Shown here: in pieces, positions 6,747-20,376 of the stretch
Position numbering within the stretch: the stretch's first letter is position 1
How the letters are laid out: each line of letters begins with the position of its first letter
From: Bacteroidetes bacterium HLUCCA01
GTDB taxonomy: Bacteria; Bacteroidota; Rhodothermia; Balneolales; HLUCCA01
Assembly (NCBI GenBank): GCA_001314545.1
Contig: LIHN01000021.1
Span: 124,001 to 188,000 of the forward strand
DNA: 64,000 nt
Direction: 5' to 3'
Program-made: the position numbers and the translations under genes
Notes under the pieces: model-generated
What the model was told of the DNA's origin: nothing
Seen by the model: the letters and a program-made list of their open reading frames with translations, nothing else
Database searches by the model: none

Positions 6747-9107
6747 ATGACAGGTCAAAAGACCACCGCCGGAAAGCCGCCGGCCAACGCCCCCTACAAA
6801 AACCCAACCCTGCCCGTCAGTGAGCGCGCCGATGATCTTCTGGGTCGGATGACAACCTACGAAAAAATCGGCCAGATGACCCAGCTGGACATTACGCTGA
6901 TCAACACAACAGGCAAACAGCGCGACATCCGGCTGGATGCCGGTAGGGCCCGGCATCTTATCCGCAACCATCATATTGGTTCGTTTCTGAATGGCGAGGC
7001 GGTTGACGCGGCTGACTGGTACGCTTTTATGGAACCCTTAACCCGCATTGCGATGGAGGAGTCCCGACTTGGAATTCCCATCCTATACGGCATCGACCAT
7101 ATCCACGGCGCTACCTATCTGCAGCATTCCACCATCTTCCCCCAAGGCATCAATCTGGGTGCTACATTCAATCCGGAGCACGCCCGCAACACCGGTGCCG
7201 TCACCGCGCTGGAATGCGCCGACCTGGGCCATCACTGGGTGTTTGCCCCGGTGCTCGACCTCGGCGTGAATCCACTTTGGGCACGATTTTACGAAACTTA
7301 CGGGGAAGACCCTTACCTCGCCGGGCTCCTCGGTGCAGCATTTGTGGATGGCATGCAGAACCACCCCGAAACCTCACCGTATCGCGTTGCTGCCACAGCC
7401 AAGCATTTTCTGGGATACTCCAACCCCGCATCCGGATGGGATCGTACTCCGGCCAGCCTGTCCATGCAGGAAATCCACGAATTCCACCGCCCGTCTTTTC
7501 AGAAAGCCATTGACGCCGGTCTGAAAACCATCATGGTCAACAGCGGCGAAATCAACGGCATACCCGTGCACGCATCCCGGGAAATTCTGACCAATCTCTT
7601 ACGGGAGCAAATGGGCTTTGAAGGCGTCATCGTCACAGACTGGGATGACATCGGCAAGCTGGTCGACTTCCACTACACGGCGGCCAATTTCAAAGAAGCT
7701 ACCTTCGATGCCATAAAGGCCGGAATCGACATGAGCATGACTCCGCTCCATCTCAAATTCAACACCGCCCTGCAGGAACTGGTTGAGGAAGGTCGGGTCA
7801 GCACGGCGCGTATCGATGCCTCCGTGCGCCGCATCCTCACCCTGAAGTTCGAACTGGGCCTTTTTGAACACCCTTTCCCGCGCAAAGATCGCCTGCACCG
7901 CATCGGGTCTGCCGCCAACCGGGCAAAAGCCTCCGAAGCCGCCCGCGACTCCATTGTTTTACTCAAAAACGAAAAAGAAACGCTTCCGGTGATTAAACCC
8001 CGGAAAATTGGTGTCTTCGGCATGGCAGTCCGAAGCCGTCGTAACCTATGCGGGGGCTGGACGCTGGCCTGGCAGGGTGGCGATGAAGACCGATTCCCCG
8101 GGGATATGGCCACCGTATTTACCGCGCTGCAGCAGGAGTTTCCGGACGCTGAAATTGTGCATCTGGATGTACCGGTGGATACGCAGCCGAAAAAGGACCC
8201 GCAAACATCACATCTCCATCTGCACGATGGAACAGCCATAAACAGCACGACGCTCAAGCCAACACCAGTTACCGGTAAAAGCCGCAAACAGTTTGAACAG
8301 AATCTTAAAGGGTGTGACCTGCTGATCTACGCCGGAGGCGAGGAGCCCTATTGTGAGTTTGTGGGCAACATCAACGACCTGCATCTACCTGCCGCCGAAA
8401 CCGCCGCTATCAGAGAGGTTCGTTGCCACAGCAATGCCCCAATGGTCATGGTCTTGATTGAAGGTCGACCCCGGCTCATCCACCACATCATTGACCTGGC
8501 AGATGCCGTGCTTTTTGCCGGCCTTCCGGGTCCCGAAGGCCCAGAGGCCATAGCAGGTATTCTGAGTGGCCGGCACAACCCCGCAGGGCGCCTGCCCTTC
8601 TCCTACCCTATGAGCCCGAACCATCATCTGACCTACAACCACAAGCGAAGCAATCTGTATTTCTTTGATCCGGACGTGGCCAATCACATCATTCAGGGCA
8701 ACACCACAGCCTCGCTTTTCCCCTTCGGTTTCGGTCTGAGCTATACCACATTCGCCTACAGTAACCTTCGACTGAGCACCACCAAAGCCCTTCCCGGTGA
8801 TGAAATTACGGGAACCGTCACCGTCTCCAATACGGGTAACCGCGATGGCATAGAAACCGTACTCTGGTTCACTTCCACCCACCACGGAAAAGTATCCCGA
8901 CCGGTAAAGGAGCTCAGGCACTTCGAAAAAGTATCACTGCCCGCGGGCGAGTCGGCCACCGTCACCTTCCGGTTCACCCCCGAAATGCTGACCTACCCGA
9001 ACGGGCACGGTGAGCCGGTACTAGAAAACGGCAGCTATAGTGTCCGGGTTGGCGGGCTAGAACGAAAATTCAGAGTGGAACAGCCATCGCGTTCTAAAAA
9101 CGTCTGA
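6747..9107 (+). CDS. Cytoplasmic family 3 glycoside hydrolase (beta-glucosidase type)
   Basis: 786 aa with the GH3 N-terminal barrel (KIGQMTQLD near 45; KHFLGY; the nucleophile D298 in VIVTDWDD), the C-terminal alpha/beta domain (LLKNEKETLPV, LFAGLPGPEGPEAIAG) and a terminal fibronectin-like domain (GTVTVSNTGNRDG). No signal peptide is present, so it should act in the cytoplasm on imported oligosaccharides or glucosides. It starts 7 bp after the LacI-type gene. No Shine-Dalgarno is seen. No SusC/SusD transporter pair is visible in this window, so the import route is open. Confidence 0.9.
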   Translation: MTGQKTTAGKPPANAPYKNPTLPVSERADDLLGRMTTYEKIGQMTQLDITLINTTGKQRDIRLDAGRARHLIRNHHIGSFLNGEAVDAADWYAFMEPLTRIAMEESRLGIPILYGIDHIHGATYLQHSTIFPQGINLGATFNPEHARNTGAVTALECADLGHHWVFAPVLDLGVNPLWARFYETYGEDPYLAGLLGAAFVDGMQNHPETSPYRVAATAKHFLGYSNPASGWDRTPASLSMQEIHEFHRPSFQKAIDAGLKTIMVNSGEINGIPVHASREILTNLLREQMGFEGVIVTDWDDIGKLVDFHYTAANFKEATFDAIKAGIDMSMTPLHLKFNTALQELVEEGRVSTARIDASVRRILTLKFELGLFEHPFPRKDRLHRIGSAANRAKASEAARDSIVLLKNEKETLPVIKPRKIGVFGMAVRSRRNLCGGWTLAWQGGDEDRFPGDMATVFTALQQEFPDAEIVHLDVPVDTQPKKDPQTSHLHLHDGTAINSTTLKPTPVTGKSRKQFEQNLKGCDLLIYAGGEEPYCEFVGNINDLHLPAAETAAIREVRCHSNAPMVMVLIEGRPRLIHHIIDLADAVLFAGLPGPEGPEAIAGILSGRHNPAGRLPFSYPMSPNHHLTYNHKRSNLYFFDPDVANHIIQGNTTASLFPFGFGLSYTTFAYSNLRLSTTKALPGDEITGTVTVSNTGNRDGIETVLWFTSTHHGKVSRPVKELRHFEKVSLPAGESATVTFRFTPEMLTYPNGHGEPVLENGSYSVRVGGLERKFRVEQPSRSKNV

Positions 9108-10908: not shown

Positions 10909-11805
10909 ATGTTTCACCTCGGCCAGTACCAGATTCTAAAAGTGGATGAAATCAGCGATTTTGGCTACTTTCTCATCAATCCGGACATACCGGAACCCGA
11001 TCCGGACGAAGAACGGACCGAAGAAGAACGCCGCGCCCGTCGCATCCTGCTGCCGAAACGACTCACGCCGAAAGTCCCCAAACCCGGCGACCTCCTGCGG
11101 GTTTTTGTCTACAAGGACAACGAAGAGCGCCTTACCGCCACCCTGCAGGAACCCCTGATTACCCTGGGCGGCTTCGCCCGCCTGGAGGCCCGCAATGTGG
11201 ACGAGCGGGGTGCCTGGCTGAAATGGGGACTCGACAAAGATCTCTTCGTACCCTACCGGGAACAGACCGTGAAAATGGTGGAGGGAGGCAAGTACCTGGT
11301 CCACCTGTACATCGACGATAAAACCGATCGGCTTGCTGCCACAGCCCGCATCGACCGCCACCTGCAAAATACCGATCTGTCCCTGGCGGAAGGACAGCAG
11401 GTTTCCCTGATTATCTGGAAGAAAACCGACCTCGGCTACAACGTAATCATCGAGGGTAAGCACAAGGGACTGGTCTACCACAATGATATCTTTGAGCCGG
11501 TGCACAGTGGCGAGGAACGCACCGGATACATTCAGACCATTCGCGAAGACGTGAACCTGGACGTAACCCTCCGTCCGGTGGGGTACCGTAAAATTGAGCC
11601 CAAAGCTGGGAAAATCCTGGAGGCGTTGGACGAGGAGGGCGGAGTGCTGCTGCTGCATGACAAAAGCGATCCCGATGAAATCCGGAATCGCCTGCAGATG
11701 AGCAAAAAAACCTTCAAGCAGGCCATCGGCCGGTTGTACAAAGAGGGTCGCATTGTGATTACGGACACCCATATTGAGCGGGTGAATGCTACTCCGGAAG
11801 GATGA
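10909..11805 (+). CDS. CvfB-like multi-S1-domain RNA-binding protein
   Basis: 298 aa from the ATG at 10909; the earlier in-frame Met at 10843 would add 22 residues without family character. The order matches the CvfB family: S1-like domains (GQYQILKVDEISDFGYFL; GGFARLEARNVDERGAWLKWGLDKDLFVPY; GYNVIIEGKHKGLVYHNDIFE) and a C-terminal winged helix (SKKTFKQAIGRLYKEGRIVI). Staphylococcal CvfB is an RNA-binding regulator; function here is by homology only. Confidence 0.88.
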   Translation: MFHLGQYQILKVDEISDFGYFLINPDIPEPDPDEERTEEERRARRILLPKRLTPKVPKPGDLLRVFVYKDNEERLTATLQEPLITLGGFARLEARNVDERGAWLKWGLDKDLFVPYREQTVKMVEGGKYLVHLYIDDKTDRLAATARIDRHLQNTDLSLAEGQQVSLIIWKKTDLGYNVIIEGKHKGLVYHNDIFEPVHSGEERTGYIQTIREDVNLDVTLRPVGYRKIEPKAGKILEALDEEGGVLLLHDKSDPDEIRNRLQMSKKTFKQAIGRLYKEGRIVITDTHIERVNATPEG

Positions 11806-12073: not shown

Positions 12074-12331
12074 ATGACCCTATCCAAAAAGCGCAGAATC
12101 ATCTTTGTGGCCCTTGCCGCAGTCATTGCATCCATTGTGATTATCGATGCCAATCGCATTTTCAATCCGGATGAGTACATCATAGTACCGCATGGCAATC
12201 ACAATCACTACCTGCCGCGCGACCGTGACGAGAGTGTGCCGGTTCACAGCTTCCCGATGGTCAGACCGCGACCCAATGAAACCATCACTCCGGACGGCAG
12301 GGTGGTTCCGCGCGAGGATTTTCAGCCTTAA
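12074..12331 (+). CDS. Small membrane-anchored protein with one histidine-triad (HxxHxH) motif
   Basis: 85 aa. Residues 8-27 are one hydrophobic segment (IIFVALAAVIASIVII), then a periplasmic tail. The tail contains VPHGNHNHYLPRD, in which HGNHNH fits the HxxHxH zinc-binding triad of streptococcal Pht proteins, normally repeated several times in much larger surface proteins. The remainder is Pro/Arg-rich with a PDGRVVP stretch. The region before it, 11806-12073, holds no gene. Zinc binding is inferred from the motif; no partner gene is evident. Confidence 0.7.
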   Translation: MTLSKKRRIIFVALAAVIASIVIIDANRIFNPDEYIIVPHGNHNHYLPRDRDESVPVHSFPMVRPRPNETITPDGRVVPREDFQP

Positions 12332-12371: not shown

Positions 12372-13049
12372 TTAGCGCTTCAATTTGGCGGTCAAGGCTC
12401 CGTGCAGCTGATTCAGATACGCCTCCATCATAGGCGCCCGGTCGTCCAGCGGTCGCTGAAAGAGCTCTGTGAGATGGGCCAGTCCTTCCGGGGTGAGTCC
12501 GGGCAGCTGGTGCAGCCACCGCCAGGCCGTAGTCCCCCTCGCCACCGGTTTATTCACCATTACAAAAACGGCATCCAGCAGCAACTCGGTGTAGATGCCG
12601 CATAAATACGCCTGCAGGCCGGTATTTTCGGTGCGTATAGCCGAGCGCAGTTTCATGCGGGCTTCGCCTACCCTGAAATGTACATCCTTGATGGTGGCAG
12701 CGCTGTGTGAGAATGATGCAAAACGCTCGCGTGCGTCGGTGATAAGCTCGTCAACCGTACCGGCCGGATCGCGCACGGGCGTGGCGTCCATCAGCTGATA
12801 CACATACGGACCGCCCCGGGAGATATCCAGGGTGATTTCATCGTAGGTTCTCCATCGCACCTCCACCCGTCGGGCGCCGTGAATTCGCTCCAGAAAGCCG
12901 TGATAGTCGGAGGTGAGCACGTAGAAGTCCACATCCGACTCATCGGTCATGCCCCCGTAGGAGGCACTGCCCGATACATAGCACCCCATGACGCCGGCAT
13001 CTGTGGCGTACAGGTCTACAATCTCATTAAATAGGGCATCCAGATTCAT
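12372..13049 (-). CDS. Predicted nucleotidyltransferase-fold protein
   Basis: 225 aa. Residues 24-45 (VSGSASYGGMTDESDVDFYV) match the pol-beta superfamily signature GSxxxG...DxD, with D38 and D40 as likely metal ligands. The C-terminal half is helical, as in aminoglycoside- or MNT-type nucleotidyltransferases. No HEPN partner is next to it, so a MNT/HEPN toxin-antitoxin role is not supported. Target unknown. Confidence 0.65.
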   Translation of the reverse strand: MNLDALFNEIVDLYATDAGVMGCYVSGSASYGGMTDESDVDFYVLTSDYHGFLERIHGARRVEVRWRTYDEITLDISRGGPYVYQLMDATPVRDPAGTVDELITDARERFASFSHSAATIKDVHFRVGEARMKLRSAIRTENTGLQAYLCGIYTELLLDAVFVMVNKPVARGTTAWRWLHQLPGLTPEGLAHLTELFQRPLDDRAPMMEAYLNQLHGALTAKLKR

Positions 13050-17052: not shown

Positions 17053-17254
17053 AACTAAATCGATACACACAAAAACGCAACCCGCAATGCATTTTTGTCT
17101 CGCCTTAACCGGTGCAGCACTGTGAGTACATAGCGCAGCATCGTTTTTATTTAAGATATTATTGTCTTATTTATGAGTTACCCCTATCTTGATATTAGTA
17201 CACACAATGCAATTTTGTTGCATTTGTCAGCTTATAAATGGGTATTTTCAGCGT

Positions 17255-17638
17255 ATGAATCTGCGAAACACCGTTACGGCCCTCTGGATGGTATCCCTGC
17301 TGTCCGTCGTATTCAGCGACCTGGTGATTGTTGCGTCATGGAAGCTGAACGAGGCCTACATCGCCCGTACAATGTGTGTTGAGCGGGATGTTGCCGAATC
17401 CGATTGCGGGGGTACCTGCTATCTGACGGCCCAGCTGGAAGCCCGGAACAATCCGGAACCGGACAGCGTGCCTCTGGCCACCCTGCTGGAGCAGTCTCGT
17501 TCGCTGACGGCCACTCTCCCGGAGTCGATGGCCGCACTACAGCCCCGGAAAAAGGAGCATGAGGGTGCATGGACCGGCCATGAAACACCACCCTCCGAGG
17601 AGCTTGTCGCGGAGATTTTCCATCCTCCGCGCGCGTAA
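17255..17638 (+). CDS. Small Cys-containing membrane/exported protein upstream of the copper receptor
   Basis: 127 aa from ATG at 17255 (MNLRNTVTALWMVSLLSVVF), chosen because it opens a hydrophobic N-terminal segment. The mature part, WKLNEAYIARTMCVERD...CGGTCYLT, matches a small Bacteroidota family with a C-x(n)-C-x3-C pattern found next to metal receptors. It lies upstream of the OprC-like receptor in the same direction and may handle copper; this role is inferred from context. The C-terminal part is low-complexity. Confidence 0.6.
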   Translation: MNLRNTVTALWMVSLLSVVFSDLVIVASWKLNEAYIARTMCVERDVAESDCGGTCYLTAQLEARNNPEPDSVPLATLLEQSRSLTATLPESMAALQPRKKEHEGAWTGHETPPSEELVAEIFHPPRA

Positions 17639-17897
17639 CGGCCTCCACGCGCGCAATTGCCACTCCCTTCCTGCCAGATGTGATGGATTGAATCCTGCAA
17701 TACGACGGGCTGTCCCGAATTACTGCGCGGTGACTCCGTGTAGTATGCAGCGCCGAAAACAGATGCAGGCACACCCATCCCCCAATCTTGCCGGTACTGG
17801 GGTCCACCGGATAAATTCCTGTACCAAACCGTAATATCGGGTGGGGAACCTCACCGATGGGGAGTTGGCGTAACATCATGCCGTTACCAAATCGCGT

Positions 17898-17921
17898 CAT
17901 GCGCTGTACATACAGCGCATG
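17898..17921. promoter_or_regulatory. Perfect 10-bp inverted repeat in the copper-receptor leader
   Basis: CATGCGCTGT (17898-17907) and ACAGCGCATG (17912-17921) form a perfect stem with a 4-nt ACAT loop, ending 28 bp before the receptor ATG. No T-run follows. It could be a protein-binding operator or a leader hairpin near the ribosome site. The surrounding gap 17639-17949 holds no gene. Confidence 0.5.
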
Positions 17922-17949
17922 CATCGCGCTCACTAAAATTAGTTTAACC

Positions 17950-20376
17950 ATGCAATCAGCTATTATTAAGACATTTTTATCTCTTTTATTCCTCGGCGCC
18001 GTTCTTGTTCCGGCGACAAACCTCAAGGCCGCAACGCAGTCGGAGGATGAAGCCCTCGCATTCGTTGTGCGCAATGAAGCCACCAGCCAACCCGTGGCGC
18101 ACGTGCTGTATCGCTACGGAAACCAGCAAGGCAGCACCACCCAGGACGGTCGCATCCAGCTGACCCTGCGCGATGAAACCCTGCTGGAGCTCTCGCATGT
18201 GAGCTACGGCTCGCGCACCCTGTCCAACGAGGAGATCCGGCAGGTCGCAACAACGGGATCCCTGCTGTGGAGGGAGCGCACCACCCAGATGCAGCCGGTT
18301 ACCGTGGTTTCGGTGCGACCCGGCGAGCAGTCGCGCACCGTACTCGACCTGGACACCGGCGATAAACTCTCCCACGATGCGGGGTCTTTTCTGCAGAACC
18401 TGGCTGCCTTCTCGGGCGTGCGCAAAGGCGGAGGTTACGGGTACGACCCGGTGCTTCGCGGGTTCAAATACGATCAACTGAATGTAGTGATTGACGGGAG
18501 TATGAGTGCCTCTGCCGCTTGCCCGAATCGCATGGATCCACCCACCTCGCAAGTAGCCATGAATATGGTAGAACGGGTGGAAGTGCTTAAAGGTCCGTAC
18601 GCCCTTCGCTACGGCAACGGTTTCGGCGGAACCATCAATTTTATCTCGGCCGAACCCGATTTCACCGAGCAGCTCACTCCCTATGGCCGGCTTTCAGCCA
18701 GTACGGAAAGCAACAATGCGGTCTACCGCTACGAAGCCGTCACCGGCGTGCGAACCGCCCGGAGCGACGTCTCGCTGTTCGGGTCGTGGTCGGAGGCCGA
18801 TTCCTACACCGACGGCCGGGGACGGGATATCGCCGCGGCCTATGAGCGTGGAAGCTACGGCCTGAAAGCCGCCGTGAATCCATCGCCCGCTCACCGGGCT
18901 GACCTGAGCCTGCAGCGGAACGTTGCCAGCAACACCGAATTTGCTTCCCTGCCCATGGACCTGATTTCTGATGAAACCTGGCTGGGGAACCTGACCTGGC
19001 AATACACTCCCACGTCACACGCCTCCCATTCCGGGGATCAAGACCGGGCGCGTGGCGGCAGCCTTGTCGCTGGCGGCAACCACACTGCCGGTGCCTCACC
19101 ACAGGCAGCTCCCACATCCGCCTCCCATAGCGGGCTTCTCCACCATCTGGAAGCCAACATCTGGTTCTCCTACGTGGACCATTTCATGAGCAACGAGCTG
19201 CGCGACCTCAACCCGCGCACGGTCAACGCCGGTACCCAGGCTGAAACCCTGAACTTTGGCGCCCGCACCGAAGCCCAGATGAACCTGCCCCGCGGCGGAA
19301 CAACCTACCTGGGCATCGACTTCCGTAGTGAACAGGCCGAGGGAGTCCGCGAGCGGGAAATGCTCATGGGACCGATGGCAGGTCGAACGCTGTTGGACAA
19401 TGCCTGGCAGAAAAGCCGCATCCATACAGCAGGACTCTTCGCTGAAATGCAGCAATCCGCCGGCAGCTATCGCTATGTAATCGCCGCGCGGCTGGATGTA
19501 AACCACGCCGAAGCGCTCGACCCTGACGAGCGGTTTCTGAGCGTGAACACGGATCTGACCGTCACCCAGCTGAATCCATCGGTGAGTGCGGGCATCATTC
19601 GCAGCTGGAATGAAGCGTTGGAAACCGGAATCTGGGCCGGTCGGTCGGTACGCAGCGCCGGCATTACCGAACGGTATATCAATTTCTTCCCCGTCGGCCT
19701 CGACCCCTACGAAATGCTGGGCAATCCGTCGCTGACCCAGGAGGTCAACCATCAGATTGATGTCATCACGAGCTGGAACGCGCCCACACTTCGTGCCGAG
19801 GTGAACCTGTTTCAGTCGCTCATCACCGATTACATCACTTCGCGTATTGATCCCGATCTGGCCCCGCGCATGGCAACGGCTCCGGGCGTGCGACGTTACG
19901 TCAACGTAGACCGTGCCTGGATTGCGGGGGTCGAGGTGAGCCTGAACCAGCTTCTGGGCCGTCATCTCAGCCACGGCGCACAGCTGGCCTGGACCTATGG
20001 GCAAAATCTGGAGACCGATGAAGCCCTGCCTGAAATTGCCCCCCTCGACCTGCGCTATCATCTTGGAGCGACCCTCTGGGAGGGGCGGATTCAGCCCGAG
20101 GTATCGGTAAGGCATGTTCGCGCCCAGGACCGGGTATCGGCCAGTTTCGGGGAGCTGCCGTCCGAGGCGTTCACACGGGTAGACATGCAGCTGGTGGTCA
20201 GGCCATCGTCGGCCGGTGCGCAGTCGGCCTGGAGCAACCTGCGCATCGTAGGCGGGGTACAGAACCTGTTCGATGTCGCCTACTATGAGCATTTGAGCCG
20301 GAACATCGCCGGGGTTGGCCAACCCATCTACGAGCCGGGCAGAAATGTGTATGTAACGGTAGGCTATAGCTTCTGA
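17950..20376 (+). CDS. TonB-dependent copper receptor, OprC/NosA type
   Basis: 808 aa from ATG at 17950, giving a signal peptide (IIKTFLSLLFLGAVLVPATN). A carboxypeptidase-regulatory-like domain follows (about 33-110), then the plug (VLDLDTGDKLSHDAGSFLQN...VEVLKGPYALRYG) and a 22-strand-type barrel ending in aromatic F (VYVTVGYSF). CPNRMDPP at 191-198 is the signature of OprC/NosA copper receptors. Residues about 353-398 carry a Ser/His/Gly/Ala-rich insertion flanked by SHASHSG and SASHSG, probably an extracellular loop expansion. It should import copper across the outer membrane using TonB energy. Confidence 0.88.
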   Translation: MQSAIIKTFLSLLFLGAVLVPATNLKAATQSEDEALAFVVRNEATSQPVAHVLYRYGNQQGSTTQDGRIQLTLRDETLLELSHVSYGSRTLSNEEIRQVATTGSLLWRERTTQMQPVTVVSVRPGEQSRTVLDLDTGDKLSHDAGSFLQNLAAFSGVRKGGGYGYDPVLRGFKYDQLNVVIDGSMSASAACPNRMDPPTSQVAMNMVERVEVLKGPYALRYGNGFGGTINFISAEPDFTEQLTPYGRLSASTESNNAVYRYEAVTGVRTARSDVSLFGSWSEADSYTDGRGRDIAAAYERGSYGLKAAVNPSPAHRADLSLQRNVASNTEFASLPMDLISDETWLGNLTWQYTPTSHASHSGDQDRARGGSLVAGGNHTAGASPQAAPTSASHSGLLHHLEANIWFSYVDHFMSNELRDLNPRTVNAGTQAETLNFGARTEAQMNLPRGGTTYLGIDFRSEQAEGVREREMLMGPMAGRTLLDNAWQKSRIHTAGLFAEMQQSAGSYRYVIAARLDVNHAEALDPDERFLSVNTDLTVTQLNPSVSAGIIRSWNEALETGIWAGRSVRSAGITERYINFFPVGLDPYEMLGNPSLTQEVNHQIDVITSWNAPTLRAEVNLFQSLITDYITSRIDPDLAPRMATAPGVRRYVNVDRAWIAGVEVSLNQLLGRHLSHGAQLAWTYGQNLETDEALPEIAPLDLRYHLGATLWEGRIQPEVSVRHVRAQDRVSASFGELPSEAFTRVDMQLVVRPSSAGAQSAWSNLRIVGGVQNLFDVAYYEHLSRNIAGVGQPIYEPGRNVYVTVGYSF

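Follow-up and report, generated by a model that had tools for sequence, protein, structure and literature searches.

We found that a short gene at 12074–12331 of the window (the whole 64,000-nucleotide stretch of DNA analysed here) encodes a member of a conserved small-protein family that has no Pfam or NCBIfam model of its own. It is a histidine-triad-type family, probably handling zinc or copper. The observation made in the preliminary description is thereby confirmed, and its interpretation is in part supported. The gene, which lies on the plus strand as do the parts of it given below, starts with ATG and codes for 85 amino acids, including VPHGNHNHYLPRD; the coordinates take in the stop codon. 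Histidines 40, 43 and 45 form the triad (H40-G-N-H43-N-H45, 12191–12208). We consider it a real gene because homologues occur in 34 of the 59 genomes searched, the host genome included, and because the codon differences from a copy in the same genus are mostly silent (35 synonymous-only, 20 non-synonymous). A spurious ORF is ruled out by these homologues and this synonymous excess, and a chance motif by conservation of the triad in 102 distinct homologues. For the same pair, NG86 dN was 0.15 and dS 3.7 (dS is saturated), and the gene is under purifying selection.

The triad gene is solitary in the window. Its upstream neighbour on the same strand, ending at 11805, is a CvfB-like gene with S1_2 and CvfB_WH domains (Pfam), and the converging gene downstream (12372–13049) is nucleotidyltransferase-like, with Pfam matches below cut-off. 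No metal gene adjoins the window copy. A TonB receptor gene is located 5.5 kb downstream (17857–20376), preceded by a small cysteine-containing ORF (17189–17638) with no Pfam or NCBIfam match. The best NCBIfam match of this receptor is the copper receptor model TIGR01778, at 211 of 472 bits and thus below cut-off, which may be a weak hint at copper.

A class-wide profile search detected the family in 159 of 244 genomes (112 of 162 among the well-assembled ones), and named records with a homologue include Fodinibius, Salinibacter, Salinivenus and Longimonas. In a 394-genome sample of the phylum, 63 genomes were matched, all of them from the order or class of the host. The assignment to a Gram-negative lineage was correct. 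Neither Pfam nor NCBIfam offers a family at cut-off for the window protein, and the best-ranked papers on these phyla, a small top of very long lists and hence a weak test, contained no description of a triad protein. Conservation was counted by column over 102 distinct proteins, derived from 146 matches after removal of two from Streptococcus oralis (144 rows); start codons of the homologues were set by a script rule. The conservation of the three histidines, the lack of which would have refuted the preliminary description, is nearly complete: HGxHxH is kept in 99 of the 102 proteins, with H43 and H45 invariant and lysine in place of H40 in the other three. These lysines were found only in copies from CusBA-type clusters (L072, L073/L141 and L140/L185). 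Each homologue has at most one triad (one HxxHxH in 99, none in three). G41, P65 and G75 are also invariant, P61 is found in 101 proteins and E69 and I71 in 95 each. The C-terminal module to which most of these residues belong, FPxxxPxxxExIxPxGxxV (residues 60–79, 12251–12310), is thus as conserved as the triad. Homologues are 76–137 amino acids long, apart from the two cupredoxin fusions in this set (252–253 amino acids). The 137-residue proteins, from three genomes of one family (L132:1676-2086, L133:1514-1924 and L134:1489-1899), have a second C-terminal module lacking histidines, plus extra cysteines.

An AF2 model from 69 sequences had a mean pLDDT of 92.8; besides the window protein, the set drew on the 71 class loci except L062, L071 and L093, hence on 68. 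The model contains a single helix (residues 5–26, 12086–12151), a beta hairpin made of strands 35–40 and 43–48 (12176–12217) and short strands at 69–71 and 77–79. In the hairpin, H40 closes the first strand and H43 starts the second. In 97 of 102 homologues, a simple script found more positive charge ahead of the helix than in the stretch between helix and triad; the predicted topology thus has the N-terminus inside and the triad hairpin in the periplasm. The initial characterization as a stand-alone, single-helix protein of 85 residues with a single triad agrees with the ORF, the modelled helix and the isolated gene. Lineage-specific cysteine pairs occur after the helix in two sets of homologues (L086, L088, L098–L100, L138 and L144; L120, L122, L124, L125 and L131). 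Cysteines in this position would fit disulfides and an oxidising compartment, hence the periplasm. No fold match emerged from the PDB by Foldseek (nothing at E 0.001 or better) or from VIA structure comparison (nothing at Z 2), both weak tests for a protein so small.

Gene neighbourhoods were compared across 71 class loci of about 3.5 to 16 kb each, with neighbours taken from a crude longest-ORF script and tblastn with few queries. In 61 of them none of the queried genes was matched. The matches in the remainder were a P-type ATPase only (L041, L042, L050 and L087), CcmF (L063 and L080), CusBA (L072 and L073) and COG0523 (L085 and L101). Linkage to metal genes was seen for all nine examined extra copies and for five sole copies of Balneolaceae, and was absent for the window copy and for 61 of the 71 loci; the extra copies support the preliminary description in this respect. 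Among the 61 is L081, which adjoins a ZnuD-like receptor (NF038289, 183.6 bits, cut-off 950) and also a second copy, 91% identical and split over two ORFs. A divergent TonB receptor gene lies beside the triad gene in 21 of the 71 loci (e.g., L042, L059 and L088). In a tree of 40 of the 42 receptor ORFs (two short ones omitted, several branches long), Balneolales and Rhodothermales receptors fell into separate clades. With only 21 loci and two separate clades, this receptor was rejected as one conserved partner. The Rhodothermales receptors are often accompanied by a gene whose match to DUF4249, seen in the L076 member, is below cut-off.

In each genome the copy with the lower score was taken as the extra one; the nine come from seven Balneolaceae genomes (G277, G423, G054, G313, G425, G390 and G426) and from G230 and G501. 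G527, also with two matches, was left out, and three further genomes had two matches within one ORF. All nine adjoin metal-related genes, at seven Balneolaceae heavy-metal islands and two COG0523/TonB receptor loci. The latter two, from Salinibacter altiplanensis (L101) and a MAG of the same family (L085/L178), combine the extra copy with a TonB receptor, DsrE and a COG0523 (cobW) GTPase. At L101 this GTPase is His-rich, and there is a ZIP match below cut-off. The L101 receptor is matched best by haem-receptor models, with ZnuD third, and the GTPase by CobW ahead of the zinc chaperone ZigA. Since all these receptor and GTPase matches are below cut-off, the metal at L101 is not fixed, and the link of the two loci to zinc is a soft one. 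In a weak peptide tree (81 columns), L101 and L085 were placed in different clades (support 98/92 and 90/83), which suggests two recruitments; one origin also appears compatible with the label test. Upstream of the COG0523 gene, L101:8256-8496 contains three GGTAGC units, and similar units, some of them inverted, follow the DsrE gene (7239–7300).

Twelve Balneolaceae copies lie in heavy-metal islands (L172, L173 (=L072), L073 (=L141), L174–L177 and L181–L185). Seven are second copies and five are sole copies (L175–L177, L181 and L182), and being related by descent the 12 are not independent; in the peptide tree they group with other Balneolaceae copies (85/36). Each of the 12 is near at least one of P-type ATPase, CusA/CusB-like protein, multicopper oxidase, DUF411 and azurin genes, and none of these was found near the nine non-island Balneolaceae copies that served as control (L036, L037, L038, L064, L074, L075, L078, L082 and L180). 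In nine of the 12, the genes for DUF411, the triad protein and a ResA-like protein directly adjoin in this order on the same strand. These nine islands vary in CcmF, DsbD, multicopper oxidase and P-type ATPases: CcmF is immediately upstream of DUF411 in five (L172 and L174–L177), and DsbD is downstream of the ResA-like gene in four (L172, L176, L183 and L184). At L173/L072, L073 and L185, a CusB-like, RND, P-II series precedes the triad gene, and azurin is the next gene in two of the three. Five of six P-type ATPases tested with NCBIfam pass the heavy-metal cut-off (TIGR01525), the sixth being cut by a contig end, and the RND protein of L072 passes the CusA/CzcA model TIGR00914 (1107 vs 701 bits). 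For the ATPases of L072 and L176 the zinc/cadmium models give higher scores than the copper ones, and for that of L183 copper fits best. The ATPase scores suggest that the islands are not tied to a single metal. The L176 oxidase is below the CueO cut-off (379.6 vs 525). In addition, four of the island copies carry a fused cupredoxin (L172, L175, L176 (=L121) and L177 (=L118)), as identified by PF00127, or for L175 by tblastn within one ORF. When one island-type copy was compared with 72,556 plasmid records, no match was found.

Because a near-invariant motif is accompanied by extra copies and fusions among metal-handling genes, the protein probably holds or passes metal outside the inner membrane. 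On balance we favor the view that it is tethered to the membrane and binds zinc or copper in the periplasm, as a buffer or a carrier. The conservation, the neighbourhoods and the fusions behind this reading are direct observations, complemented by the predicted topology and hairpin. A small inner-membrane protein with a cytoplasmic N-terminus would show one three-histidine hairpin to the periplasm, where the triad would bind a late transition metal ion, zinc or copper. The membrane anchor would hold the hairpin near transporters or redox partners, and the protein may buffer the metal or pass it to neighbouring periplasmic or membrane proteins. We infer metal binding, the identity of the metal and its hand-over from these features taken together. 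The solitary window copy would then be the housekeeping form, and further copies may have been taken up by COG0523/TonB-receptor loci, in Salinibacter and a relative, and by the Balneolaceae heavy-metal islands, some being fused there to a cupredoxin. Against this reading are the lack of metal genes next to the window copy and most others, the lack of a conserved fourth ligand, and the lysine in place of H40 in the CusBA-type clusters. The soft link to zinc, the mixed metal signals of the islands, the common descent of the island copies, the absence of a common upstream palindrome and the second repeat devoid of histidines also count against it. We regard as possible, though unlikely, a broader form of the proposal, in which a Rhodothermia-wide periplasmic metal carrier, a triad hairpin on a membrane stalk independent of Pht, would serve a general zinc/copper pool, and copies of it would have entered systems for metal uptake and heavy metals; encoded there between DUF411 and the ResA-like thioredoxin, and sometimes fused to a cupredoxin, it would load copper proteins directly.

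The preliminary description had suggested a zinc chaperone or sensor. A zinc chaperone is possible, though zinc is not the only candidate metal: the islands contain copper and zinc/cadmium-type genes and cupredoxins, and no ZnuA (PF01297) match was found in the window's genome, which is 98% complete. The idea of a sensor found no support, as the window protein has no other Pfam domain and the upstream regions share no palindrome, Zur-type or other, in a simple arm-and-spacer scan (L031–L101, up to 220 bases upstream, and some further regions).

The island gene order raises another explanation, a helper in cytochrome c or copper-oxidase maturation whose hairpin handles copper or haem next to CcmF, the ResA-like thioredoxin, DsbD and azurin. 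Besides the DUF411, triad, ResA-like order and the CcmF and DsbD genes described above, a compact operon at L186:6835-10069 (=L063) fits this view: its CcmF-like gene runs into the start of the triad gene, and the triad gene into that of the ResA-like gene. The triad gene there is the sole match in its genome. However, only two of the 71 class loci have CcmF nearby, no CcmF-like protein reaches the TIGR00353 cut-off, and both COG0523 loci have no CcmF or ResA-like match. We find a role in maturation improbable. We also give little credence to the view that the histidines serve the structure or bind a ligand that is not a metal, and that the metal neighbourhoods reflect hitch-hiking. The C-terminal module is as conserved as the triad, the repeat in L132–L134 is histidine-free and a TonB receptor of unknown ligand recurs in 21 loci with two receptor clades, all of which would suit such a role, but the nine extra copies beside metal genes and the four cupredoxin fusions argue for metal.

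The term "streptococcal-type" in the preliminary description implied a relationship to Pht proteins. The window protein scored 20.2 bits against PF04270 (cut-off 27; E 5.8e-4) and 15.2 bits against TIGR01363 (cut-off 33), and the proposed search of the phylum with the Strep_his_triad profile (PF04270) put none of 394 genomes above the cut-off. The family profile finds PhtD (9p1v, 4.3e-6) and PhtA (2cs7, 6.2e-5) in the PDB, and in hhalign the family matched eight S. oralis triads at 96.2% (E 2.4e-9), with only 17 columns aligned. A control with RarA/MgsA segments reached 92.6% (E 4.4e-7) over 22 columns with the same triads. Such an ATPase also comes close to the window protein in PF04270 searches of genomes (20.0 vs 19.9 bits) and proteins (17.7 vs 20.2 bits). 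After this control, Pht membership was not accepted from the Pfam match. The RarA/MgsA-type AAA+ ATPases, which come from the same class as the host (L187:103-1539 and L189:1011-2432; MgsA_C E 1e-64), carry the motif YPHAYHNHY[IV]P. Four PF04270 matches lie in frames of 475–479 amino acids, and the two of these that were read were typed as MgsA_C AAA+ ATPases. The motif is a source of false positives in histidine-triad searches, and the control is a warning that short histidine-triad matches should not be read as Pht homology. Outside the class PF04270 had a single match, in an 894-aa frame of G418; lacking a triad and matching Pfam only weakly, it was taken as chance. The triad family outscores the control in each protein-level test and by these comparisons is nearer to Pht, with a margin too small to demonstrate common descent; that the two converged on a short metal hairpin explains the data equally well. 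The strand placing of H40 and H43 matches that described for H83 and H86/H88 of PhtD (PMC3842936). The triad gene and ZnuA were found together in 23 of 59 genomes, the gene only in 11, ZnuA only in two and neither in 23, a pattern that follows family boundaries and proves little; cobW-type matches were present in all 59 and hence uninformative. Since the window's genome, one of these 11, has no ZnuA match, the Pht-to-AdcAII route is not available there if the genome is complete in this respect. With scores under both cut-offs, the RarA/MgsA control, ZnuA missing in 11 of 34 gene-bearing genomes and no Foldseek or VIA match in tests that are weak for so small a protein, a true distant Pht member that donates zinc to a ZnuA/AdcAII-type binding protein is improbable.

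Proteins this small are mostly left as hypothetical. The protein described here, with its near-invariant three-histidine site, occurs in 159 of the 244 genomes searched in a class, and the places of its copies and fusions suggest metal handling in more than one setting. Should it bind metal, it would offer a minimal, readily produced model for the passing of metals in the periplasm, and might account for part of this process in relatives with no ZnuA match.

In comparison with known systems, the extra copies at L101 and L085 sit in loci like those that combine COG0523 (cobW, PF02492) and TonB receptor genes, but the L101 receptor and GTPase pass no curated cut-off; the triad protein is not known to be part of COG0523, TonB receptor or ZnuD loci. 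The resemblance to copper and heavy-metal resistance (CusBA, P1B ATPases, azurin, DUF411 and CueO-type oxidase) is that Balneolaceae copies lie within or beside such genes, four as cupredoxin fusions. A difference is that the first histidine is gone from the copies that lie inside CusBA-type clusters. The triad protein is not known as a component of these resistance systems. With respect to Pht/HTP proteins, one report lists H83, H86, H88 and E63 as the zinc ligands of PhtD (PMC3842936), and another found htp genes in nine bacteria other than Streptococcus, among them Firmicutes and one actinobacterium (PMC3603884). Unlike PhtD, the triad family has no conserved equivalent of E63: residue 20, about 20 before the triad as E63 is in PhtD, falls within the membrane helix, with no acidic residue among the five letters most often found there, and the nearest candidate is position 25, D or E in 69 of 102 homologues. 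The host also differs from Pht/HTP hosts in having no ZnuA match. The family shares with Pht/HTP proteins a PHGxHxHY hairpin with three histidines and an extracytoplasmic location, here predicted; whereas those proteins carry several triads on a large surface protein, this one presents a single triad on 85 residues with a membrane helix, in a Gram-negative host.
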